Origin: a virus
DNA length: 21,476 nt
Reading direction: 5' to 3' (one strand)
Virus record (IMG/VR): IMGVR_UViG_3300040751_000309
Coordinates: 1 to 21,476 of that record
The stretch's first letter is position 1. The number at the start of each line of letters is the position of its first letter. Positions 3,102-20,350 of the stretch are shown one piece after another. Position numbers and translations under genes: made by a program. Below the pieces are notes generated by a model that saw nothing but the letters and a program-made list of their open reading frames with translations, was not told the DNA's origin and did not search any database.

Positions 3102-3400
3102 GATCACTAACAGAAACCCTGAACGATATGATCGAAAAGAACCCGACGACAGAGCTCGGAGTTTTTGTGATGTCGATTAATAATCTTCAGAAGTTCAGGA
3201 AGACTCACGGCTTCTCCGGGGAGTTTAAGGGTCACAAGGTCAGAGGAATGAAACAAGCTCCTGACGACAAAATATATTTACTCGGAGAGGAGGATTATCA
3301 ACAGCTCAACGAAGCTGTAAAGAACCCGATCAAGACGATCAAAAACAAGGACAAAAATGAAACGATTCAAGAAACTACTCAAGCGACTGAAGACGCTTAA
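3098..3400 (+). CDS. Unknown 100-residue protein
   Basis: A small soluble protein starting by ATGA overlap with the holin gene. The first half looks folded, with mixed hydrophobic and charged residues (for example TELGVFVMSINNLQKFRKTHG and DKIYLLGEEDYQQLNEAV); the last 30 residues are low-complexity Lys/Asn/Thr/Glu. I do not recognise the family. It overlaps the start of the following chaperone gene by 44 bases in another frame. Position between holin and the tail block gives no firm hint. Confidence 0.6.
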   Translation: MRSLTETLNDMIEKNPTTELGVFVMSINNLQKFRKTHGFSGEFKGHKVRGMKQAPDDKIYLLGEEDYQQLNEAVKNPIKTIKNKDKNETIQETTQATEDA

Positions 3401-4064
3401 AAGGTGGGTTAAGCTCAGAAGCTCGATCCCGAAGAATTGGAATCAGGTAACGATCGAACAATTCATTCAGCTGAACGATCTTCCTCAGACTTCAAACGAA
3501 GTCACGAACTTAGTCAATAAGCTGACTGTATTAACAGGACTCACAGCTGAACAGATCAGATCAATGTCAGCTCAAGAGATTCAGAAAATTAATAAGCGAC
3601 TGAGCTTCTTGTCAGAGCTTCCTAAAGAGAAGGACGTTAAGAGCTTCAGCTTTAAAGGGAAGAATTATAAAAGAGATAAGATCGAATTCTCGACTGTTGC
3701 TCAGGTCACTGATCTACTTCAGATGAATCAGGACGAGGAGAACGTCGGAGCGAAGATATTAAACGCGATCGCTGTGATATATTATCGAGACGGAGAGTCT
3801 GAATATACAGCTCAGAGATTCAAACAAATGAAGGACGAACTCCTGACTCTTCCCTTCCCTGTCGCTTTAAATTCGTCGGTTTTTTTTTCTCGTGGCTTGA
3901 GGAGATTTTTTCCCGACGTTTTAAGGGACTCTTTGAAGAAGCTGACGATTCAACAGACGGAGAACCTGATCCAAGGGATAGAGAACGAATCAGAATCGAA
4001 CGACTTCGGAAGGTTTTTCAATGGTACGACTTCACTCTCGGACTTGCTTCAGGAGACGTCTTAA
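3357..4064 (+). CDS. Tail assembly chaperone, short (unshifted) form
   Basis: The unshifted frame gives 235 residues. After a basic N-terminal stretch of about 22 residues comes IPKNWNQVTIEQFIQL, then a helical middle, then LPFPVALNSSVFF near residue 165-177. This resembles proteins of Bacteroidetes phages thought to be tail assembly chaperones, which coat the tape measure protein before the tube polymerises. After the T9 run (3880-3888) the zero frame continues for 58 codons rich in codons this phage seldom uses and ends at 4062-4064. I think this tail is either the short form of a two-form chaperone (as G in phage lambda) or a product of reading past a shift site. The start at 3357 is the only ATG near the N-terminus and has an A-rich leader. 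Confidence 0.6.
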   Translation: MKRFKKLLKRLKTLKRWVKLRSSIPKNWNQVTIEQFIQLNDLPQTSNEVTNLVNKLTVLTGLTAEQIRSMSAQEIQKINKRLSFLSELPKEKDVKSFSFKGKNYKRDKIEFSTVAQVTDLLQMNQDEENVGAKILNAIAVIYYRDGESEYTAQRFKQMKDELLTLPFPVALNSSVFFSRGLRRFFPDVLRDSLKKLTIQQTENLIQGIENESESNDFGRFFNGTTSLSDLLQETS

Positions 4065-4165
4065 AATATGCGGAAGCTTCCCGGATAACATTCGTCGAAG
4101 CTTGTATTTATTACGGATATAATAAACAGTATAAAAATGCAATTAACACTGAAGGAACTAACTGA
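3357..4165 (+). CDS. Tail assembly chaperone, long form by -1 frameshift
   Basis: Slippage at T TTT TTT (3881-3887) moves reading from codons starting at 3885 to codons starting at 3887 and gives about 269 residues: 177 from the zero frame and 92 from the -1 frame. The joined region reads SSVFFFSWLEEIFSRRFKGL, and further on VFQWYDFTLGLASGDVLKYA, then a stop at 4163-4165. WYDFTxxLAxGDVLKY is the kind of sequence I associate with the second part of tail chaperones in Bacteroidetes phages, and its codons (GGA, GAC, GTC, GCT) match the rest of the genome. This parallels the G/GT pair of lambda. A single-base deletion in the T run or an assembly error would give the same picture. It overlaps the next gene by 29 bases. 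Confidence 0.6.
3880..3888 (+). promoter_or_regulatory. Candidate -1 ribosomal frameshift site (T9 run)
   Basis: Nine T residues follow GGT context as GTT TTT TTT TCT in the zero frame, giving the slippery heptamer T TTT TTT at 3881-3887. Both frames stay open downstream, and the -1 frame carries the more protein-like sequence. A short possible stem (TCTC 3888-3891 with GAGA 3902-3905) and another (TCCC 3911-3914 with GGGA 3925-3928) lie just after; neither is strong. Confidence 0.55.
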
Positions 4166-4595
4166 CAAGCTTAAAGACTTGCTTCTGACTCACGCTAAGC
4201 TCAAGGACGTTAACGTCTGTACTTACGACGATCTTCTGATCAAGGTCAGCGAAAATAAAAACGAATATTTCGGAGCGTTTATAGTTTATGATCTGAGACA
4301 GATTCAGCTCCTTGAATGGTCGACAGTTATCCCTTTAACGATTATCTTCGCTGACAAGCTGAGACCGAACCGGGAGAATGAAATATTTATTCATTCAGAT
4401 ACTGTCTCGATCGCTGTCGATTCTGTCAAAATGATTCGAGATTATTGTCGCGATAATGGTCTTGACGGACTTGATCAGGTCACTCTTGATATATGGTCAG
4501 AGGACGAATCAGATTCGAGACTCGCGGGATCAAAGATCGACTTCTTAATGAACTTAAATATCGGGGGTTATTGTGACGTCCCGCTTAATTCGTAA
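4137..4595 (+). CDS. Tail terminator / head-tail joining-like protein
   Basis: A 152-residue soluble protein. It begins with a helix (LTLKELTDKLKDLLLTHAKL), continues with beta-like strands (FGAFIVYDLRQIQL, STVIPLTIIFAD) and a long helix around residues 88-105 (SIAVDSVKMIRDYCRDNG), and ends with a strand-rich segment containing IDFLMNLNIGGYCD. This order matches tail terminator or tail completion proteins, which cap the finished tube and join it to the head. Fold-level resemblance and position (before a gp10-like gene) support the call; no decisive motif exists. It starts inside the frameshifted end of the chaperone gene, preceded by TATAAAA. Confidence 0.45.
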   Translation: MQLTLKELTDKLKDLLLTHAKLKDVNVCTYDDLLIKVSENKNEYFGAFIVYDLRQIQLLEWSTVIPLTIIFADKLRPNRENEIFIHSDTVSIAVDSVKMIRDYCRDNGLDGLDQVTLDIWSEDESDSRLAGSKIDFLMNLNIGGYCDVPLNS

Positions 4596-4613: not shown

Positions 4614-5378
4614 ATGAGAATCTATCAATTAAACAACGTGATTATCTGTGAGAAGCTCACAGAGAAAATAGCTTTTAATCCTTCTATGACTACTTATGAC
4701 GTTAACACAGAGGAGGGAGTCGTTACTGTCATGGAGCGAACAGATTATAAAAAAATGATCTCAGCTGATATCTCAGATATTCAGGACGGAGACGGGACTT
4801 CAATTATCGGAGAGAAAGCGATTCACACTTATATCTCACAGCTTATAAATTTTAAGACGTCCGCGGGAGGAAGCGTCGGACTATTTGCACAGGTCGAAGA
4901 AGGAAGAGCTATCACGACAGTCGGAGAGAAGACTCTTCTCGGGACGGGAGTCGGGAGCTTGTCTGTTCCCGCTGATACTTTTCAGATTGGAGACTCTTAT
5001 CACTTTAAAATCGGAGGAATCTTAACAGCTGACGGAACAGGAGGAACTCCGACAGAGATTAATTTCAAAATCAAGAACGGACTGAACGTTATCGCTGAAT
5101 CGGGAGCGATTGAATTTAATTCTGTCAGCGGAACAGGGTGGGAGATTGAACTCGATTTTACAATCTCTCAGATCGGATCGAGAGGAGTCTTGTTCACGAA
5201 TGGAGACTTATCTTATATTGAAGACGGAGCTCAAGAATTATCCGGTTTTGTTTTTGAGTCGAAACTTCCTATCGATACAACAGTCGACAGCGTTCTTGAC
5301 GTAACAGCTGAATTCGTTACTATCAACACAGGAGACTCAATTCAATCGGTTAACGCTGTATTATATAAAACATATTAA
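4614..5378 (+). CDS. Virion structural protein with a jelly-roll-like middle
   Basis: A 254-residue protein with two apparent parts. Residues 1-85 hold a pattern seen in Bacteroidetes phage virion proteins (FNPSMTTYDVNTEEGVVTV, then ADISDIQDGDGTSI and IHTYISQLINF). Residues about 105-225 are rich in beta strands and Gly/Thr (TFQIGDSYHFKIGGILTAD, FNSVSGTGWEIELDFTISQIG), like the jelly-roll domains of decoration or tail proteins. It could be a tail or fibre-associated protein; I cannot choose between these. The leader ATCAAAAATTAATAAA directly before the ATG is almost the same as the one before the endolysin. Its stop overlaps the next start (TAATG). Confidence 0.5.
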   Translation: MRIYQLNNVIICEKLTEKIAFNPSMTTYDVNTEEGVVTVMERTDYKKMISADISDIQDGDGTSIIGEKAIHTYISQLINFKTSAGGSVGLFAQVEEGRAITTVGEKTLLGTGVGSLSVPADTFQIGDSYHFKIGGILTADGTGGTPTEINFKIKNGLNVIAESGAIEFNSVSGTGWEIELDFTISQIGSRGVLFTNGDLSYIEDGAQELSGFVFESKLPIDTTVDSVLDVTAEFVTINTGDSIQSVNAVLYKTY

Positions 5379-5908
5379 TGACAGAGGAGGAGCTTATCGG
5401 GAGTCTGAATAAGTGGGGAGCTTCTGTCGTTTCTGATATGGTTTCTTTTTTAGGGACTATCGGGAAGACTAACACAGGAGCTCTCGCTGAATCTCTTCGA
5501 GCTGAAGCTCGGAAGGACGGAGAGAATATCGTCCTCGAATTCTTCGGAAATAATTACAGTGAATTCGTTCGTCAAGGAGTTAAGGGATCAGTCAGTTCGC
5601 GTAAAGCTCCGAACAGTCCTTTCAGATTCGGATCAGGAACAGGAGAGAAAGGAGGACTTCGTCGATCTATTGACAAGTGGGTTATCACGAAAGGGATCAG
5701 CGGAATCAGAGACGAGCGCGGACGCTTTATAAAGAGGAAGAGTCTCGTCTTCCTGATCTCTCGAAAGATTTATCGATTCGGGATCAAACCGACGAATTTT
5801 GTCTTCCCGTTCTTCAAACGACAGGACGAGCTTGTCGAACTTATCGGAAAGGAGTTCGCTGATATTGTACTAAATGAATTAAGATCGGCTTTCAATGGTA
5901 ACAAATAA
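5378..5908 (+). CDS. HK97 gp10-like / virion morphogenesis protein
   Basis: A 176-residue protein with features of the gp10-like head-tail joining family: an N-terminal helix, TGALAESLRAEARKDG, then an FGNNYSEFVRQGVKG segment (the position of the family's Y-x-x-Y/F-V-x-x-G motif), followed by RKAPNSPFRFGSG, a segment KWVITKGISG, and a C-terminal helical tail with LVFLISRKIYRFGIKP. Such proteins act in tail completion or as head-tail adaptors. It starts on TAATG with the previous stop and overlaps the following gene by 14 bases, so it sits inside one tightly coupled tail block. Confidence 0.55.
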   Translation: MTEEELIGSLNKWGASVVSDMVSFLGTIGKTNTGALAESLRAEARKDGENIVLEFFGNNYSEFVRQGVKGSVSSRKAPNSPFRFGSGTGEKGGLRRSIDKWVITKGISGIRDERGRFIKRKSLVFLISRKIYRFGIKPTNFVFPFFKRQDELVELIGKEFADIVLNELRSAFNGNK

Positions 5909-11910: not shown

Positions 11911-14697
11911 GTGGCTGAACAGGTAAATATTAAAGTATTAATTGACGCGACAAAAAGCTCGAAGACTTTACAAGAGCTCGAGAACAATGTCGAGAACTTG
12001 AACGACGCTCTCAACGAAGTTCCTGAAGGGTCTCAGGCTTTTGATCAATTAACGGAAGCGATCGAAGACAGTTCAGATCAGGCTCTTGAACTGGCTGTTA
12101 ATATTGATAAATCGAAGGCGACTATCGGAGAACTCGAACGATCGATCGAAGTATTATCAGAAGAGCTCAAGGGAGTCGAAAGAGGATCAAACGAATTCGG
12201 TCGTCTCAGCTCTGAACTTATTGAAGCGAATCGTCAGCTTAAGAACGTTGAGTTAAGTCTCGAGGCTCTCGATACTGAACAGGTCGCTTCTGAACTTGGA
12301 TCAGTGACAGGAGCTGTCGGAGACGTGACAGCTTCCTTCATTCTTCTCGGAGGGGAAGGGAATGAAACACTTGAAGAGATCGGTCGAAATTTAGAGATCG
12401 CGATCGGATTAAGTACGGGAGTTAAGGGAGCGATCGAAGGAATTCAGTCCGGGATTAAATTATACAAGAATCTCGGAGATCAGATCAAACAGTCGAACGT
12501 ATTTATAAAACTCGCGACAGTTTCTCAGTCCGCGTGGAATGTAGTTCAGGGAGTTTTCTCAAAGGTCGTCGGAGGATCGACGAAAGCTGTCAACGGCTTT
12601 AAGGTCGCTCTGATCTCGACAGGAATCGGAGCTTTAATAGTTTTGATCGGGACGCTTGTCGCTCAGTGGGAAAATATCACGAAGGCTTTAAGCTTTACGA
12701 CTGACGCTCAGAATCGTCAGAACGAAGTTAGCTCTCAAGCTATTGAGAAAGCGGGAGAAGAGCTCTCAGCAATTGACAAGCTTCAGAAAGCTATTCAGTC
12801 CGGGAACTTATCGAGAGAGCAACAGATCGACGCTGTCAAAGATTTACAGGAACAATATCCGGACTTACTTCAGAATATTGACGCTGAAAAAATAACTCGG
12901 GAGGAGCTTAACGAAGCTCTCCGTCTTAACGCTGAATTGATAGAACTTAAAGCTCAAGCTGATGCGATCGCGGAGCTCAGAGCTGAATCTTACAAACAGA
13001 TACTTCAAGAACAAGCTGACGCTCAAACAGGAGCGAATGTCGGAATCATTGACTATATACAATCGTTAGGGACAGGAGTCGAGGCTCAAGATTTAGCTAA
13101 CTTCAAAACAAAAGAAAGGATTCAAGGCTTAAAAGATGAAACTAAAGCCTACGACGAACTCGACAGGGGAATTCAGGACTCAATTAATTCTCTTGAGGTC
13201 AAGCTCGGAGTCGATCGAGAAGCTGAAGAAGCAAGGAAGAAAGAGGAAGAGGATCAGAAAAAAGCTGAAGCTGAAGCGAAGAAGCGACAAGCTGAAGCTA
13301 AGAGGAGAGCGGAAGAAAAGAAGCGACAAGCTGAAGAACAGAGGAAAGCTGAGGAGAAGAGACTCAGCGATCTCGCTATTCTCGAAGAAGAATTTTTTCA
13401 GAAGTCACTCGCGACAGACGAAGAGAGAGAAGCTCGTCGATTAACACTCGCGTTCGAAGCTCAGAGAAAAAGAATCGAGTCTCTTGTTAAAGACGACGAA
13501 AAACTGAAGACGCTTCTTAAACAGAATGAAGAGTTTTTTCAAAAGGACTTACAAGCTATCGAGGACAAATATTCTAAAATTGACGAAGACAAAAGGAGAG
13601 AGCTAAATAATAAAAAGATTCAGAGCTCGAGAAACGTCGCGATAATTGAGGAACAGATCAGACTTGAAAGCTTAACCGATCAGGAGAGAGCGGGAGAGGA
13701 GGGTCTTAAAATACTTAACAAGATCAATGATCTAAAAATCGAACAGCTCCGGGAGAACAGAGATATCGAACTTCAGAACACTGAGTTAACAGCTGAGGAA
13801 CGTCTTGAGATCGAGAAAAAATATCTACTTGAAGAAGAGAAGATTAATAATGAATCACGAAGAAGAGAAGCGGAAGCGGACGCTGAAGCGAATAAATCAA
13901 AAGCTGAACGGAGGAAAGCTCTTAAAGATGAACTGATCTCCCTCGCTTTTGATACAGCTCAGGCAGTTTCAGATTTAGCTTTCGAGATAGCTGAACAGGA
14001 GGCTCAGAGAGAGTCTGAAATGAGACTCGAAAATCTTGACAATACTTTCAACGCTGAACAAGATCGACTTAATCAGAAGGTTGAAGACGGGTTAATAACT
14101 CAAGCGGAAGCGGATCGACAGTCCGCGGAACTCGAGAAGAAGAAGAACGCGGAAGCTCTCAAGGAACAGAAGAGACTCTTCACAGAACAGAAGAAGAGAC
14201 AGAAGACTCAAGCTGTTATTAATGGAGCTTTAGCCTTCACGAATGCACTGGCGACGACTCAGCCACTAGTACCGGCGGGTCTTATTGCGGGAGCGGGAGT
14301 CTTGATCTCGACAGGGGTTCAGATCGCGAAGATCGAGAGTCAGAAGTTCGCGAAGGGTGGAATCTTATCAGGGAAGAGTCACGCTCAGGGAGGAATAAAA
14401 ACTCCATTCGGAGAACTCGAAGGAGGGGAGGCTGTTATAAATAAGAGATCGACAAACATGTTCAAGGGAACGCTTTCAAGAATTAATGAAGCGGGGGGAG
14501 GAGTTCGCTTCGCTTCGGGTGGAATTTTAGGACAAGGAACTTCTCAGGGGACGACTCAGGAAGGGACTGATCTCGGAGGAATTTTAACAACTTTAAACGA
14601 CAGATTATCACAACCGATCAGATCGTTCGTCGTCGAGAGTGATGTCTCAGAGACTCAAAATCGAGTCTCAAGACTTGAAAAGAACGCGGACTTATAA
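11911..14697 (+). CDS. Tail tape measure protein
   Basis: A 928-residue protein starting at GTG (no in-frame ATG lies between it and the previous stop). It is highly helical: N-terminal coiled-coil residues 15-125, a hydrophobic segment at about 231-251 (VALISTGIGALIVLIGTLVA), a Lys/Glu/Ala-rich coiled coil at about 437-486, and another at about 690-775. The end shows FAKGGILSGKSHAQGGI and ELEGGEAVINKRST, the usual C-terminal signature of tape measure proteins in Bacteroidetes phages. It sets tail length and is ejected with the DNA. At roughly 0.15 nm per residue the tail would be near 140 nm (inference). Stop TAA at 14695-14697, followed at once by a hairpin terminator. Confidence 0.9.
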   Translation: MAEQVNIKVLIDATKSSKTLQELENNVENLNDALNEVPEGSQAFDQLTEAIEDSSDQALELAVNIDKSKATIGELERSIEVLSEELKGVERGSNEFGRLSSELIEANRQLKNVELSLEALDTEQVASELGSVTGAVGDVTASFILLGGEGNETLEEIGRNLEIAIGLSTGVKGAIEGIQSGIKLYKNLGDQIKQSNVFIKLATVSQSAWNVVQGVFSKVVGGSTKAVNGFKVALISTGIGALIVLIGTLVAQWENITKALSFTTDAQNRQNEVSSQAIEKAGEELSAIDKLQKAIQSGNLSREQQIDAVKDLQEQYPDLLQNIDAEKITREELNEALRLNAELIELKAQADAIAELRAESYKQILQEQADAQTGANVGIIDYIQSLGTGVEAQDLANFKTKERIQGLKDETKAYDELDRGIQDSINSLEVKLGVDREAEEARKKEEEDQKKAEAEAKKRQAEAKRRAEEKKRQAEEQRKAEEKRLSDLAILEEEFFQKSLATDEEREARRLTLAFEAQRKRIESLVKDDEKLKTLLKQNEEFFQKDLQAIEDKYSKIDEDKRRELNNKKIQSSRNVAIIEEQIRLESLTDQERAGEEGLKILNKINDLKIEQLRENRDIELQNTELTAEERLEIEKKYLLEEEKINNESRRREAEADAEANKSKAERRKALKDELISLAFDTAQAVSDLAFEIAEQEAQRESEMRLENLDNTFNAEQDRLNQKVEDGLITQAEADRQSAELEKKKNAEALKEQKRLFTEQKKRQKTQAVINGALAFTNALATTQPLVPAGLIAGAGVLISTGVQIAKIESQKFAKGGILSGKSHAQGGIKTPFGELEGGEAVINKRSTNMFKGTLSRINEAGGGVRFASGGILGQGTSQGTTQEGTDLGGILTTLNDRLSQPIRSFVVESDVSETQNRVSRLEKNADL

Positions 14698-14763: not shown

Positions 14764-14986
14764 AATATCAATTTTACGTTTAATGAACTTTCTTTAAATT
14801 TTAATATATAGACAAGCGGGATCAGGAGAAAGTCTCTCAGATCGCTTAAAAATAAAAAATAGGCGATTTGCATAATTCAAAAATTTTATTAAGGAAAATC
14901 TCAAAAATCAAATTTTTAAATTTTACTACATTTTTAAAATTTATCGCTTTTTGTGTTCGATTATAACCTTTACAGCTTTAGTAAAT

Positions 14987-16648
14987 ATGGAAACTTTGAA
15001 CGGTCTTCCCGTCCTCAGAATTACGATCGACGAAGCTCGATCAGATCACGGAGTCGATAAGATATCTCTTGTCGATCTTCCCGCTATTGAGGAGAATTTT
15101 TTGACTTTCTCTAAAGAAGAAAATCAGGTTCTTGAGGAGACGTTCAAGTTTTTGAGTGACGAACAGATGAAACTCGCGGGAGCTTTTTTAATCCCTGATA
15201 AACCTATTTTAAGACGTGACCCGAAGACGAATCAGGAGTTTTACGTCGTGTTCCCGGAGGAAGTTATCAGAGAGATCGCTGATCGATTTAATCAGAACCT
15301 TTACGGGAATAGCTTTAACGAACAACATGAGACAGACGTGAAGGACGTCTTCGTCTCTGAGAATTGGATTATCGAGGACAGCCAAAAAGATAAAAGCTCT
15401 TTTAAATTTGGTTTCAGTTATCCGGTCGGAACTTGGTTCGGGATCGTAAAAGTTAATAACTCTGATCTGTGGGATAACAAGATCAAGACAGGGGAGCTCA
15501 GAGGGTTCTCTGTTGAACTTCTCGCTGGTCTTAAGTTCGCGATCGACTCGAAGCTGATCGAAGATCACGCTCTTAAGGTTATGGAAGAAGAGCAAGGACT
15601 CGGGGAAGAACTTCCGAAGGGAGCGATCCTGATCAGTGAGTCTGATATCTCAGATAATGAGAACGATTTTAATCTTGACGAAGTTGATCTTGAACAACTT
15701 GAGAAAGATCACGGACTCGAGTTCAGAGTCACAGCTGATCCTCAAGCGAACAGCTCTCTCGATCGACTTAAGATCGGGAAGGACGGGACTCCTGTCGGTC
15801 AGTGGTTAGTCCGTTATAAGTACGACGGAGTTCGAGACGATAAAAATCGTTCATTCTGTGCTCGAGTTTTAGACTATCAGCTGAGAACAGGAAGAGTCTT
15901 CAGGAAAGAGGACGTCGATCAAATGTCATTCAGGGGAGAGAACAGGGAGTTCGGGATATATTCGATCTTTACTTATAAGGGTTCATATGGCTGTCGTCAC
16001 AAGTGGAAGAGATTGATCTTCTTCGTTGACTTCGAAGACAAAGAGACAAGAGCTGTCGGGAACGTTCCCGGAGTGACTTCCTCAATTAACGATTCTGAAG
16101 CAAGGAAGAAGAACGCTAAACCGACAAGAAGTAACTTATCAAAAACAGATAACAAAATGAGTGAATTGAAAACTAAATTCGAGACGATCGAAGAGCTTAC
16201 TCCTGAACAGAGAGTTCTCGACGCTCAAGTCGACAACGAAGACGGGACTTATACTGTCGAGGGAGTGACTTATCAGGTTACTGAGGGAAGAATCACAGAG
16301 ATAATGGAGGAGACTCCTGAAGCTCCTGAGACTCCTGAAGCTACTGAGACTCCTGAGACTCCTGAAGCTCCTGATTCTGACGAATGGAAAATGGAAGTAA
16401 TGAATAAGATCGCTGAGCTTGAGGCAAAAATCGAGCAAATTATGAACGCGATGAACGGAACAGACTCAACGTCTTCGGAACAATTTTCGAAGGTAGAACT
16501 TGAGGAAGTTCTTTCGAAGTTTATGAGCGAACTTAAACCCGCTGAGAACAAAAACGATCAGAAGTCTGATCCTTCTTCAAAGGAGAAGACAGCGGACAAG
16601 GTCGAGAGTGTGATCGTCACGCTTTCAAAAATGAGAAGTAAAAAGTAA
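14987..16648 (+). CDS. XkdF-like prohead protease with Cys/His domain and scaffold-like tail
   Basis: I choose ATG 14987 (TAGTAAAT before it) over an upstream TTG; 553 residues. Residues about 60-180 match the XkdF-like phage serine protease pattern: AGAFLIPDKPILRRD, FYVVFPEEVIREIADRF, SFNEQH with likely catalytic His114, and GELRGFSVEL with likely Ser175. Residues about 268-346 (VGQWLVRYKYDG ... FCARVL ... YKGSYGCRHKW) form a second domain with Cys291, Cys336 and His338, recalling the end of MuF-like head proteins. Residues 391-553 are acidic, helical and low-complexity with an ETP repeat, like a scaffold. The protein would shape the prohead and then cleave scaffold. An internal ATG at 16157 may give the scaffold alone. 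Confidence 0.75.
   Translation: METLNGLPVLRITIDEARSDHGVDKISLVDLPAIEENFLTFSKEENQVLEETFKFLSDEQMKLAGAFLIPDKPILRRDPKTNQEFYVVFPEEVIREIADRFNQNLYGNSFNEQHETDVKDVFVSENWIIEDSQKDKSSFKFGFSYPVGTWFGIVKVNNSDLWDNKIKTGELRGFSVELLAGLKFAIDSKLIEDHALKVMEEEQGLGEELPKGAILISESDISDNENDFNLDEVDLEQLEKDHGLEFRVTADPQANSSLDRLKIGKDGTPVGQWLVRYKYDGVRDDKNRSFCARVLDYQLRTGRVFRKEDVDQMSFRGENREFGIYSIFTYKGSYGCRHKWKRLIFFVDFEDKETRAVGNVPGVTSSINDSEARKKNAKPTRSNLSKTDNKMSELKTKFETIEELTPEQRVLDAQVDNEDGTYTVEGVTYQVTEGRITEIMEETPEAPETPEATETPETPEAPDSDEWKMEVMNKIAELEAKIEQIMNAMNGTDSTSSEQFSKVELEEVLSKFMSELKPAENKNDQKSDPSSKEKTADKVESVIVTLSKMRSKK
16157..16648 (+). CDS. Nested scaffold protein from an internal start (candidate)
   Basis: In frame with the protease, ATG at 16157-16159 (residue 391) is preceded by AAAACAGATAACAAA, very like the leader of the capsid gene (CAAATAACAAACAGATAAAA). 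Translation from here gives 163 residues beginning MSELKTKFETIEELTPEQ, with a beta-like VDNEDGTYTVEGVTYQVTEG, a Pro/Glu linker, a helix (MEVMNKIAELEAKIEQIMNA) and a Lys-rich end, all fitting a capsid scaffold. Lambda C/Nu3 and related phages make scaffold in this nested way. That this start is used is inference. Confidence 0.45.
   Translation: MSELKTKFETIEELTPEQRVLDAQVDNEDGTYTVEGVTYQVTEGRITEIMEETPEAPETPEATETPETPEAPDSDEWKMEVMNKIAELEAKIEQIMNAMNGTDSTSSEQFSKVELEEVLSKFMSELKPAENKNDQKSDPSSKEKTADKVESVIVTLSKMRSKK
16310..16372 (+). repeat. Seven tandem 9-base units coding Glu-Thr/Ala-Pro
   Basis: Seven in-frame copies of GAG ACT CCT or GAA GCT CCT (one ends in ACT) encode a Pro/Glu-rich linker in the scaffold-like part of the protease gene. 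The units differ only at a few bases, so the array could gain or lose copies by slippage. It links the beta-like part to the helical part. Confidence 0.85.
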
Positions 16649-16679
16649 CAAATAACAAACAGATAAAAACCTTAAAAAA

Positions 16680-17573
16680 ATGGGAATTGTTATCACTAAA
16701 CCGGAATACAGAGGAACAGAATTAACTGAATTCTATACAAGAGCGTTTTACAAGAAGAACGCTGTTGATCGCTTCACGATCTTACCGGGGGTCAAAGATA
16801 AATTTGGGGCGAATTTTTTAAATTTTGACGGAACAGTTCTCGGAGCTGACGGCTGTGAATTTAATCCGAACGTTAACGTCGCGTTGACTGAGAAAAATTT
16901 GAATGTAGATACTTACTCGATAGATTTTGAGGAGTGTGTTTCAACTTTCGAACAGTCTTATCTCGCTGACGAATTAAGAGCGGGAGCTAATAACGTTGAC
17001 TTTCCGGCTTCTTTTGAGGAGTGGTTGATGAGTAAACTTCCTGAAGCTATCGCTGACGAGCTTGAGCGTAAAGCTTTTACAGAATTATCGACTGAGTTAG
17101 CGGGAGACTTGAACGCTGTCGCTGTGACTATCGATCCGATCACGACAACGAACGCGATCGACGAAATCGGGAAAGTTTATGAAGGAATCCCGGGAGAACT
17201 TTTCGGCGATCCTGAACTTGTAATTATGATGAACGTGAACACTTGGAAGAAATATCTTCAGAGCGCTTTCGATACTTCAGTTCCTCAGTTAATCACTGAC
17301 GGGATCACAATGACTTATCTTGGTGTTCAGCTTGTTCCCGCTCCTGTTTATAACCTTGCAAAAGGTGGCGGACTTCAAGACAATGTACTTATCGCGGGTA
17401 AACTTTCAAACTTTATCAGAGCGACTGACTTACTTTCTGACGACGCGGAGCTTAACATGATCGATCTTCGTCAAACGACAGGAGACAAAAAGATCAGAGT
17501 AACAGGACGTCTGAAATTTAAATGTACTTACGCGATCTCTGAGGAGGTTGTTTATGCTACAACAGCTCCTTAA
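16680..17573 (+). CDS. Major capsid protein (HK97 fold)
   Basis: A 297-residue protein with the order expected of an HK97-type capsid protein: an N-terminal arm, the segment DRFTILPGVKDKFGANFLNF, an E-loop-like region, a long helix around FPASFEEWLMSKLPEAIADE, then the P domain strands GDPELVIMMNVNTWKKYLQ, VQLVPAPVYNLAKG and DNVLIAGKLSNFIRATDL, and a final strand KFKCTYAISEEVVYA. No cleavable N-terminal delta domain is visible, in line with a separate scaffold. A long A-rich leader (16649-16679) precedes the ATG, fitting strong translation, and a strong terminator follows. It lies directly after the protease/scaffold gene. Confidence 0.85.
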   Translation: MGIVITKPEYRGTELTEFYTRAFYKKNAVDRFTILPGVKDKFGANFLNFDGTVLGADGCEFNPNVNVALTEKNLNVDTYSIDFEECVSTFEQSYLADELRAGANNVDFPASFEEWLMSKLPEAIADELERKAFTELSTELAGDLNAVAVTIDPITTTNAIDEIGKVYEGIPGELFGDPELVIMMNVNTWKKYLQSAFDTSVPQLITDGITMTYLGVQLVPAPVYNLAKGGGLQDNVLIAGKLSNFIRATDLLSDDAELNMIDLRQTTGDKKIRVTGRLKFKCTYAISEEVVYATTAP

Positions 17574-17586
17574 TAATTAACTGAAG

Positions 17587-17611
17587 AGAGTCCTTCGGGA
17601 CTCTTCTTCTT
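17587..17611 (+). terminator. Strong terminator after the capsid gene (UUCG tetraloop)
   Basis: AGAGTCC (17587-17593) pairs with GGACTCT (17598-17604) around a TTCG loop, followed by a T-rich tail (TCTTCTTATTT). Perfect seven-pair stem with an extra stable tetraloop, 14 bases after the capsid stop codon. Confidence 0.85.
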
Positions 17612-17641
17612 ATTTACAAACAGCTCAAAAAATTATAAGAT

Positions 17642-18184
17642 ATGGCTTGTGTATGTGCTAACTTATTGACAGAGGGGATCGACGTTCTTTGCGAAAATAA
17701 CGCGGGAGGGGTTCTCGATATTCTTGTCGCTGATAAATGTCAGATCGCTGATTATACTGAATCTTCTCCGGGAGTCGTTGACTCTATAACTATGGAGACA
17801 GGAGCTCAGTTCTATCGAATCGAGACGCAAAGATTAACAGCTTCCTTCGAAGAGAATGAGACTAACAACTTTGACAACGGATCAAAGTTCTTTGATCACA
17901 TTTTGAATATTGTTGTCGCTCGTCGTGACGTCGCTCGTCGGAACGCGATCGCTGGACTCGGAGCGGGGCAGAAAGATTTAGTTTTCTTGGTTAAAGATTC
18001 AAACTCAACTTGGTGGGAAATGGGTCTTGAGGAAGGGATTAAGCTTCTTACTTCGACAGGAGGATCAGGAACTAAAAAAGAAGATTTGAACGGATATACA
18101 ATTCAGTTCACAGGACAGTCTTCTGACTTAATGTCGACAGTCGATTCAGGAATTATCGACGCTCTTCTTACTCCCGCTCCTTAA
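17642..18184 (+). CDS. Tail-tube-like major structural protein
   Basis: A 180-residue protein that begins MACVCANLLTEGIDVLCENN and has the order of a small family in Bacteroidetes phages often labelled tail tube or major tail protein: GGVLDILVADK, then VDSITMETGAQFYRIE, a FFDHILNIVVARRD helix/strand unit, DLVFLVKDSNSTWWEMGL and DLNGYTIQFTGQSSD near the end. Such proteins form the stacked rings of a long tail. It stands alone between two strong terminators, with its own A-rich leader (CAAAAAATTATAAGAT), which fits a product made in high amount. The alternative is a capsid decoration protein, suggested by its place between capsid and portal genes. Confidence 0.55.
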   Translation: MACVCANLLTEGIDVLCENNAGGVLDILVADKCQIADYTESSPGVVDSITMETGAQFYRIETQRLTASFEENETNNFDNGSKFFDHILNIVVARRDVARRNAIAGLGAGQKDLVFLVKDSNSTWWEMGLEEGIKLLTSTGGSGTKKEDLNGYTIQFTGQSSDLMSTVDSGIIDALLTPAP

Positions 18185-18219
18185 TTGGATCAGGAATAAG
18201 ATTAAACAATGAACAGAAC

Positions 18220-18247
18220 GGACTCCCGCTCAGGTGGGAGTCCTTTT
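18220..18247 (+). terminator. Strong terminator after the tube-like gene
   Basis: GGACTCCCGC (18220-18229) pairs with GTGGGAGTCC (18234-18243), ten pairs including one G-T, around a TCAG loop, followed by TTTT. The stem core (GGACTC/GAGTCC) is similar to that of the terminator before the gene, though inverted in arrangement. Confidence 0.88.
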
Positions 18248-18262
18248 ATACAAGGATAAAAA

Positions 18263-18523
18263 ATGATTCACGCTCAAGAAGGGAATAACACTCTGTTTGT
18301 TTACTCAACGAACGAAGCTCTCACGGACTTCGAGATTACGCTTCAGGGAAAGGAGATCAGAGAAAGAGTCGAAGAGACTTATCCTCTGACTATTATCGAT
18401 TTTAATAACTCTTTTTTTGAGCTTCAGCTCGAGCTTCCTGTTCTTAATTCTGTTGAGTGGTCTTATCAGATAACTTCAGGAGCTGAAATAATTGACTCAG
18501 GACTTTTAAGATATGGCTCTTAG
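18263..18523 (+). CDS. Unknown 86-residue protein
   Basis: A small, beta-rich, acidic protein (for example DFEITLQGKEIRERVEETYP, then SFFELQLELPVLNSVEWSY and ending in GLLRYGS), preceded by the A-rich leader GGATAAAAA. The strand pattern recalls a small immunoglobulin-like or head-decoration fold, but I do not recognise the family. It follows a strong terminator and overlaps the portal start by 11 bases, so it is probably made with the portal. A T7 run lies inside it at about 18412-18418 without an evident alternative frame. Confidence 0.6.
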   Translation: MIHAQEGNNTLFVYSTNEALTDFEITLQGKEIRERVEETYPLTIIDFNNSFFELQLELPVLNSVEWSYQITSGAEIIDSGLLRYGS

Positions 18524-19877
18524 AGATTTATTCAGGTTCACAGCTTCCGAACCTATCAAAGAAGAAACGAAGGACGAGATCGGAAACTTCTCCGTCCCTC
18601 GAGGAAGTTATCACGACAGCTCTGAGCTCGATATTAAAGAGAACAAGTCTGATCACATTTATAATTTCGGACGATTGAACGACTTCCCTCGGAAGCTTGT
18701 CGACTTATACGATACCTCTCCGACGAATCAGGCGATCGTCAACAGAACAGCCTTAATGATCGCGGGAGGAGATATCGAGATTGAGGGAGAGGGAAGCGTC
18801 TTCGATATGGTTCACGCGATCTCACTGAAGAACTTCGCGAACTCAAGACAGAACTTATATCAGGTTTTATATCAGATCGCTTTTGATCTTAAGCTTCACG
18901 GACGTTACGGAATTGAATGTATATGGAACGAAGATCACTCGAAAATCGTTCAAATAAAGAGAGTCGACGCTGAAGGGATCAGAGTCGGATTAATGGAGAA
19001 CGGAGAAGTAACTTCTTATTATTGGTCTGAGGATTGGAAGGACAAGAAAGCGAAGCGGGTTAAATACGCTCCCTTCGATAAATACGGAGAAGAGTCCCGT
19101 CAGCTTCTTTACTTTCAGTTAATCCGATCAGGTCACGAAGTTTACGGACTTCCTGATTATTACGCTTCTTTGAAGTGGATCGATCTTGAGTCTCAGATCG
19201 GAGCTCATTATCTTGATTCAGCTCTTAACGGGTTCAGTCCGAAGCTCTCAGTCGTCTTCCCGGCTAAACCTGAAAGCGAAGAGATCGAAGATCGCATAAT
19301 GAAGAGACTGAACGAAAAATACACTGGCTCACTCGGGAAGAAAGTTATCGGAATATTCGCTCCTCGTCCTGAGCTTAAACCTGAATTTAATCCGATCAAC
19401 GTCGAGAACCTTGACAAACAATATCAAGTAATTGACGAACAGACTCAGAACAAAATCTTAACGGGTCACGGAGTCGTTTCTCCGATGTTATTCGGGATCA
19501 AGACTCCGGGTCAGCTCGGAGGGTCTCAGGAACTCGAGACAGCTTTCTCGATCTATCAGTCGACAGTCGTCTCTCCTTATCAGGATATTATCGAGAGAAG
19601 TCTTAACTCAATACTCGAAGCTTCAGGATCGTCTCTGAGATTCTCTCTCTCTGAGTTCGAGATAATTAATAAGAACGTCGAAGTCGAAGGAGAACAGGGA
19701 TCGAAGGTCGCGGAAGCTCTCAATAAGATGTCTCCTCTTGTCGCTTCGAAGGTTCTCGATAATTTGACTCAGAATGAGATCAGAGCTCTCGGAGGATTGG
19801 AAGGAATCGAAGGAGGTGATCTGACGAAGTCTCAACAGGAACAACAGTCTCAAGAATTTAAAAAGAGCAAAGAATGA
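18513..19877 (+). CDS. Portal protein
   Basis: A 454-residue protein that forms the ring through which DNA enters the head. Visible portal features: IYNFGRLNDFPRKLVDLYDT near residue 50, SPTNQAIVNRTALMIAGG, then GHEVYGLPDYYASLKWIDLE around residue 208-227 (the YGxPxYxxAL-like wing motif), DSALNGFSPKLSVVF, a basic stem region, and LTGHGVVSPMLFGIKTPGQLGG with the long C-terminal helix. The order and length fit the portals of Bacteroidetes siphoviruses. The far C-terminus is Gln/Lys/Ser-rich. It lies far from the terminase (about 16 kb), which is unusual because the two genes are commonly neighbours. Its stop overlaps the next start as ATGA. Confidence 0.85.
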   Translation: MALRDLFRFTASEPIKEETKDEIGNFSVPRGSYHDSSELDIKENKSDHIYNFGRLNDFPRKLVDLYDTSPTNQAIVNRTALMIAGGDIEIEGEGSVFDMVHAISLKNFANSRQNLYQVLYQIAFDLKLHGRYGIECIWNEDHSKIVQIKRVDAEGIRVGLMENGEVTSYYWSEDWKDKKAKRVKYAPFDKYGEESRQLLYFQLIRSGHEVYGLPDYYASLKWIDLESQIGAHYLDSALNGFSPKLSVVFPAKPESEEIEDRIMKRLNEKYTGSLGKKVIGIFAPRPELKPEFNPINVENLDKQYQVIDEQTQNKILTGHGVVSPMLFGIKTPGQLGGSQELETAFSIYQSTVVSPYQDIIERSLNSILEASGSSLRFSLSEFEIINKNVEVEGEQGSKVAEALNKMSPLVASKVLDNLTQNEIRALGGLEGIEGGDLTKSQQEQQSQEFKKSKE

Positions 19878-20350
19878 ACTTGATAATTAACTCCCAATAT
19901 TTTGAAGATAACACTGTTATCGATACAGATTTCAGCGTTGAGAAGTCTTATATTCATTTGATCGAAGCTCACGAAATTCAAGTTTTTGAACTTCTCGGGA
20001 AGGAATTATTTGACCGGGTTCAGACGATACTCAGCGGAACTCCCGCGGGTCTCGAGCTTGATCTTATTAACTTACTTAAACCCTTCACTGTTAAGGCTAC
20101 TGAGATAAATTTGATCCCGTTCCTGAACTCTCCTGTCACAGCAAAAGGAACTCAGGACAGAACAGGGAACTTCACTCAGTCCGCTAACGATACGAACACA
20201 GGACTCACGCTTGACGCTGTGAGATCACGTCTCGAGACTTACGCTCAGAAGGTCAGAAACTTCCTCGACGATAACAGAACAGAGTTCCCGGAGTGGAAAC
20301 ACTGTCATGAAGGAGGTCAGAACTTTTACAGCTGTATTCACGGAGTTTAA
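19874..20350 (+). CDS. Head-tail connector-like protein
   Basis: A 158-residue, mainly helical protein. The pattern SYIHLIEAHEIQVFELLGKELFDRV, then LINLLKPFTVKATEINLIPF and a C-terminal LETYAQKVRNFLDDNRTEFPEW recalls head completion / connector proteins of Bacteroidetes phages (DUF6712-like). Such proteins bind beneath the portal as the adaptor ring. The start overlaps the portal stop as ATGA, supporting a partnership. Two His and two Cys occur in the last 20 residues (CHEGGQNFYSCIHG), which might bind a metal; that is only a suggestion. Confidence 0.6.
   Translation: MNLIINSQYFEDNTVIDTDFSVEKSYIHLIEAHEIQVFELLGKELFDRVQTILSGTPAGLELDLINLLKPFTVKATEINLIPFLNSPVTAKGTQDRTGNFTQSANDTNTGLTLDAVRSRLETYAQKVRNFLDDNRTEFPEWKHCHEGGQNFYSCIHGV

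Follow-up and report, generated by a model that had tools for sequence, protein, structure and literature searches.

The window, by which we mean the whole stretch of 21,476 bases analysed here, is the uncultivated virus record IMGVR_UViG_3300040751_000309 and carries terminase, holin, tape measure, portal and CHAP-domain endolysin-like genes; it is best explained as a tailed phage with a host in the Bacteroidota. The head genes were located 3' of the tape measure gene at 14951-20350 (major capsid-like at 16680, portal at 18513), an order that is permuted compared to that of lambda. The features relevant to this study are listed below.

1476-2648, + strand: terminase large subunit (Pfam Terminase_3/3C, phrog_2), the upstream marker of the conserved gene order
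3357-4064, + strand: zero-frame product of 235 aa, a probable tail assembly chaperone N-domain plus zero-frame tail (open reading frame and homologue alignment)
3880-3888, + strand: T9 homopolymer, putative slip site, kept as an unbroken run of at least nine T in relatives
3881-3887, + strand: in-phase T TTT TTT heptamer inside T9, candidate ribosomal slip site
3887-4165, + strand: -1 frame extension, 92 residues from TTC 3887, with a W-G-W / LAxGD 'T-like' domain
4137-4595, + strand: gene of 152 aa after the -1 extension, the same gene being next in relatives; its product may be tail terminator-like, judged by size and position
5378-5908, + strand: connector/neck-like protein (phrog_29822), downstream of the chaperone gene in most relatives
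11911-14697, + strand: tape measure protein (phrog_3336, phrog_167), 7.7 kb downstream of the chaperone gene

The zero-frame ORF extends from the ATG at 3357 to the stop at 4064 and crosses the T9 run, flanked by G on the 5' side and C on the 3' side, as GTT TTT TTT TCT, which places T TTT TTT in phase. The -1 frame, open from 3803 to 4165, continues past the run as FFFSWLEEIF and later WYDFTLGLASGDVLKY until a stop codon at 4163-4165, thereby overlapping the next ORF (ATG 4137) by 29 nt. The initial annotation had described a gene split by T9 with a -1 extension, and its coordinates, frames and 29-nt overlap were confirmed. After the heptamer, 177 nt are open in the zero and -1 frames alike. 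No ATG, GTG or TTG is present in the whole -1 ORF of the window (3803-4165), so that this ORF can be reached by slippage only, and in all 58 distinct contexts of the run, the 25 codons that follow it were free of ATG. Separate initiation of the -1 ORF was ruled out given the absence of a start codon. The T9 is the sole T or A run longer than seven in the window; shuffling of the window gave a mean expectation of 1.14 T9 runs on both strands, with T9 present in 57 of 100 shuffles. A single T9 could be due to chance, and it is its conservation that exceeds chance.

Conservation of the two-frame layout

Searches with either half of the window's own protein gave zero matches, and the divergence within two mixed alignments (A1, A2) was too high for scans of the collections. 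Relatives were reached via the terminase (80 loci) and through a scan of viral contigs with the -1 domain, which gave at least 590 matches, 80 of them retained. A total of 140 loci were found through the terminase or the -1 domain, and two further scans provided 86 extra loci, with some contigs fetched twice; related loci share ancestry, and locus counts are not counts of independent events.

Between the terminase and the connector-like gene, most relatives possess an ORF of 200-270 aa and an overlapping -1 ORF of about 100 aa, the end of which reads WGWYxSIYxLAxGDxTKFxxVT...CLTYLxFxKxKNEIE, with QWYDFTLGLASGDVLKYAEASRITFVEACIYYGYNKQYKN as the counterpart in the window. A partner ORF in -1 relation was present in all loci carrying the -1 domain (140/140), as was the combination of a zero-frame ORF, a -1 extension and an unbroken run of at least nine T (140/140, including L106, a T9 locus missed by the first filter). 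The -1 relation and exactly T9 were also observed in 86/86 of the further loci. Eight prophages in Bacteroidota genomes (L171, L172, L175-L179 and L182) carry T9 and both frames, and in the cultured Nonlabens phage P12024L the T9 lies within AFM54760.1 (record position 24388); the gene of phage P12024S is near-identical, its protein sharing 99.4% identity with that of P12024L. A sequencing error in the T run was ruled out by the relatives.

Comparison of the relatives demonstrated that both frames are conserved throughout, and the run in all but L174. This prophage fragment, from a contig of 3.3 kb, reads TCG GTT TTT CAG and retains both frames; it is either a dead prophage or a case of another slip mechanism. 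Relatives with a single uninterrupted frame were sought and none was found in the family. Apparent in-frame versions of the T-like domain occurred only in much more distant, weakly matched proteins (L193, L180/L192 and Elizabethkingia phage TCUEAP1 QGZ15838), which would support the fusion as a functional product. Programmed access to the -1 extension, as initially proposed, is strongly supported by hundreds of relatives, and a programmed two-product gene in the window is near certain. The dual-open stretch of 177 nt and the distance from the tape measure gene had been considered unusual; both were observed, but are normal in the family of this gene.

Substitution patterns revealed dual coding just past the run. 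In the first 45 nt past the slip, compared over 44 pairs of relatives, substitutions amounted to 0.135 at -1 third positions and 0.173 at -1 first positions, the latter being the zero-frame third positions, a pattern suggesting that the zero-frame helix stays under selection for approximately 15 codons past the run, after which the tail drifts. At 150 nt or more past the slip, -1 third positions dominate (0.22 versus 0.12 and 0.06), and the -1 domain is under purifying selection. The zero-frame stop varies in position from +77 to +305 nt, and the -1 stop is steady in most relatives. The earlier view that the zero frame loses its coding character after T9 did not hold immediately past the run, where about 45 nt are still constrained, but held further on, where the -1 frame alone dominates. 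In an AlphaFold model of the homologue from L002 (mean pLDDT 74, core mostly 80-94), slip residues 162-163 sit within a long helix of residues 153-184.

Several loci deserve separate mention. In the P12024L record (L189:23946-24640), a single frame-shifted gene has been annotated as two CDSs, P12024L_40 and P12024L_41, the latter being a start-trimmed piece of the otherwise unannotated -1 extension. At L183:5636-14654, a chaperone homologue with T9 and both frames intact lies near host genes, with lumazine synthase upstream and SusC/SusD downstream, and this locus is possibly a prophage remnant. Distant, weakly matched L193:937-1710, L192 and L166:2164-2703 each display an apparent single ORF containing a chaperone N-domain and a T-like domain. 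Flavobacterium phage 6H AGN89393 (L187:10352-10927), which is probably the fold-search match R9VW65 as judged by the same length, has no T9, and its ORF ends in ...RCFFYSTR* with an open frame containing a T-like segment beyond.

Length, phase and wobble codon of the T run

Over the 58 distinct contexts, the run was T9 in 47, T10 in ten and T12 in one, and never seven or eight; the other T runs in the same loci (405 kb) gave a T7:T8:T9:T10 ratio of 47:16:5:1. The phase was nTT TTT TTT T.. in 53 contexts, nnT TTT TTT TT. in three and TTT TTT TTT T.. in two, in which the heptamer T TTT TTT needs 8, 7 and 9 T, respectively, and this heptamer is in phase in every T-run relative. In prophages of the order Bacteroidales, the codon before the run is GCT, GGT, AGT or GAC and the phase is shifted, with the run still exactly nine, and T9 is kept over phases 0, 1 and 2 with V, L, A, G, S or D as the preceding residue.

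The A-site Phe codon was TTT in 58/58 and TTC in 0/58 distinct contexts. By comparison, each of 14 other conserved Phe columns contained 3-25 TTC and had undergone 3-13 changes by parsimony, 8.5 on average. In the common T9 form, changing the second TTT to TTC would keep both the zero-frame Phe and the -1 Leu (TTA/TTG to CTA/CTG) and leave U UUU UUC; the window differs, as the same T to C change would turn the -1 TTC into CTC. The share of CTA/CTG among Leu codons is 17%, and C at a Phe wobble position beside the run was observed only after a tenth T. These run facts point to a need for an unbroken T run with a length of at least nine. Hydrophobic coding as the only cause of the nine T was rejected, given that it fits most positions and fails for the A-site wobble base.

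Over the 58 contexts, neither flank of the run showed a conserved RNA structure; the z values for downstream structure had means of -0.34 and -0.12, and those of the window were -1.09 and 0.39. RNA structure as a stimulator was dropped, given the lack of a conserved signal across these contexts. A 3' stimulator structure is not obligatory at phage frameshift sites. In 58/58 contexts, the +1 frame ran into a stop no more than 33 nt from the run, the median distance being 6 nt, for example at 3889-3900 in the window; such stops would suit the clean-up of deletion transcripts but may stem from the two overlapping coding frames, and they were given no weight as evidence.

Mechanism and function of the two-product gene

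Ribosomal frameshifting in DNA phages is classically exemplified by tail chaperones made as two products, and to our knowledge all known tail chaperone frameshifts have been assigned to the ribosome. For the window, we consider it somewhat probable that the gene encodes a two-product tail chaperone whose fusion arises by programmed transcriptional slippage with one added U, and untemplated U is predicted. RNA polymerase would stutter on the nine T, converting a fraction of mRNAs to U10, which, when translated normally, would enter the -1 frame, one U inserted at the run giving exactly that frame. Straight reading through T9 would provide the short product, and a minority longer product would combine the shared N-domain with the conserved -1-frame C-terminal domain; we infer both this product ratio and the level, transcription rather than ribosome, at which slippage takes place. 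The presumed task of the two products is to cover the tape measure protein and to bring in tail-tube subunits. Selection against A/T runs starts at nine nucleotides in the coding regions of many bacterial genomes, 8A being non-slippery and 9A slippage-prone, and IS elements exploit transcriptional slippage on 9A/9T (PMC1088944). E. coli RNA polymerase displays more slippage on poly(T), with insertions about three times as frequent as deletions (PMC6260861).

The fusion of the same two-product chaperone could instead be provided by -1 programmed ribosomal frameshifting on T TTT TTT, with the extra T's retained for coding, a reading that is plausible and that we hold to be the less probable. The initial annotation had regarded this heptamer as a classical slip site; it is indeed in phase in all T-run cases, making ribosomal slippage possible everywhere, and there is precedent in lambda G-T and many other phages (PMC5009743). 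Seven T would be enough for the ribosome, yet no run of seven or eight occurs in the 58 distinct contexts, and nine T persist while the phase and the flanking codons change. Most of the T's can nevertheless be explained by hydrophobic residues needed in either frame, and nine is a natural length under frame-preserving indels of three. Ribosomal tests in E. coli (tetramer data, IS usage) showed U_UU.C to shift no less than U_UU.U (PMC4066793), so that TTC should be tolerated at a ribosomal slip site, yet it was absent from the A site in all 58 contexts; Bacteroidota ribosomes or tRNA-Phe might disfavour A-site UUC. The missing conserved downstream structure counts against ribosomal frameshifting but is compatible with it, and L174, which retains both frames despite the lack of a T run, argues against transcriptional slippage. 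What is conserved is the homopolymer with its nine or more T rather than the heptamer as such, and this better fits slippage by RNA polymerase. Taken together, these sequence patterns favour transcriptional slippage over ribosomal -1 frameshifting, and both may act.

It is likely, and with good confidence, that the gene product is a tail assembly chaperone, a role suggested by gene context and two-product architecture. The gene order in the family is terminase, chaperone gene, (terminator-like gene) and connector, and in L175 the C-terminus of a tape measure protein (phrog_3336, as in that of the window) is encoded directly upstream of the chaperone gene. PHROG 32199 ('unknown') was matched by 12/16 members and phrog_166 'tail protein' by 4/16. 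Strong matches in the fold search were uncharacterised phage proteins, the annotated tail assembly chaperones being weak and non-significant (E 0.3-1.3); Pfam and PDB gave no direct homology to gpG/T, and the PDB fold search only noise. It is improbable that the frame-shifted gene is a structural gene other than a tail chaperone, such as a connector or head accessory protein. Proven chaperones are matched neither by sequence nor by significant fold and the window gene adjoins the terminase, far from the tape measure gene, whereas the position in the tail operon, next to the tape measure gene in L175, the two-product architecture, the 'tail protein' PHROG and the tail chaperones as nearest annotated fold matches speak against such an assignment. 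The tail chaperone proposed initially is thus backed by context, architecture, the 'tail protein' matches and weak fold matches, but sequence homology to lambda gpG/T did not prove it. Far less credible is the view that the two frames are separate genes, or a pseudogene or T-run sequencing error, with the -1 ORF having its own start or being untranslated: homopolymers are error-prone and an overlapping ORF pair resembles a frameshift error, but the window -1 ORF contains no start codon, the layout is shared by more than 200 loci from many metagenomes and isolated phages, and the -1 domain is under purifying selection; the view is refuted, barring a single artefact common to all relatives.

Extending the preferred reading, transcriptional slippage, beyond the window, we lean marginally towards a phylum-wide class of Bacteroidota phages and prophages that would set the ratio of their two chaperone products through slippage of RNA polymerase on a conserved stretch of nine or more T rather than through ribosomal frameshifting. 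If true, programmed transcriptional slippage would take part in dsDNA phage morphogenesis, and RNA polymerase fidelity would co-determine tail assembly. If a whole phage group relies on polymerase slippage, the conserved quantity would be the two-protein output, not the decoding trick. Annotation has overlooked the gene, which falls in an 'unknown' PHROG and is divided into 'hypothetical proteins' in P12024L/S, and hundreds of marine and gut phage genomes are therefore open to re-annotation. The cultured P12024L makes the question of transcription versus ribosome directly testable.

The closest known architecture is that of lambda gpG/gpGT and related tail assembly chaperones, reportedly treated by Xu, Hendrix and Duda in 2004. 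Like lambda gpG/gpGT, the window gene combines a short zero-frame product with a conserved -1 C-terminal extension in a tail operon, but it has no detectable sequence homology to that pair, and its slip site consists of nine or more consecutive T, unlike the diverse X XXY YYZ heptamers of the lambda type. The lambda-type gene lies between the major tail protein and tape measure genes, whereas the window gene lies beside the terminase, with 7.7 kb separating it from the tape measure gene further downstream, and the L175 gene immediately follows that for the tape measure protein. Transcriptional slippage on A/T runs has been described for Thermus dnaX (A9), Shigella spa13 and mxiE, and IS elements with 9A/9T (PMC1088944, PMC5009743). 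These systems share with the window family an unbroken run of at least nine, the joining of frames by a one-nucleotide insertion and a length independent of phase; the window gene differs in being a probable DNA-phage morphogenesis gene with putative slippage, the run of which also holds a ribosomal heptamer. The nearest cultured counterpart is that of P12024L (AFM54760.1 and P12024L_41), which, like the window gene, follows the terminase and contains T9 and a -1 extension with the WGWY domain, is about 25-28% identical to the family, and is annotated as a hypothetical protein and a separate small ORF with no frameshift.
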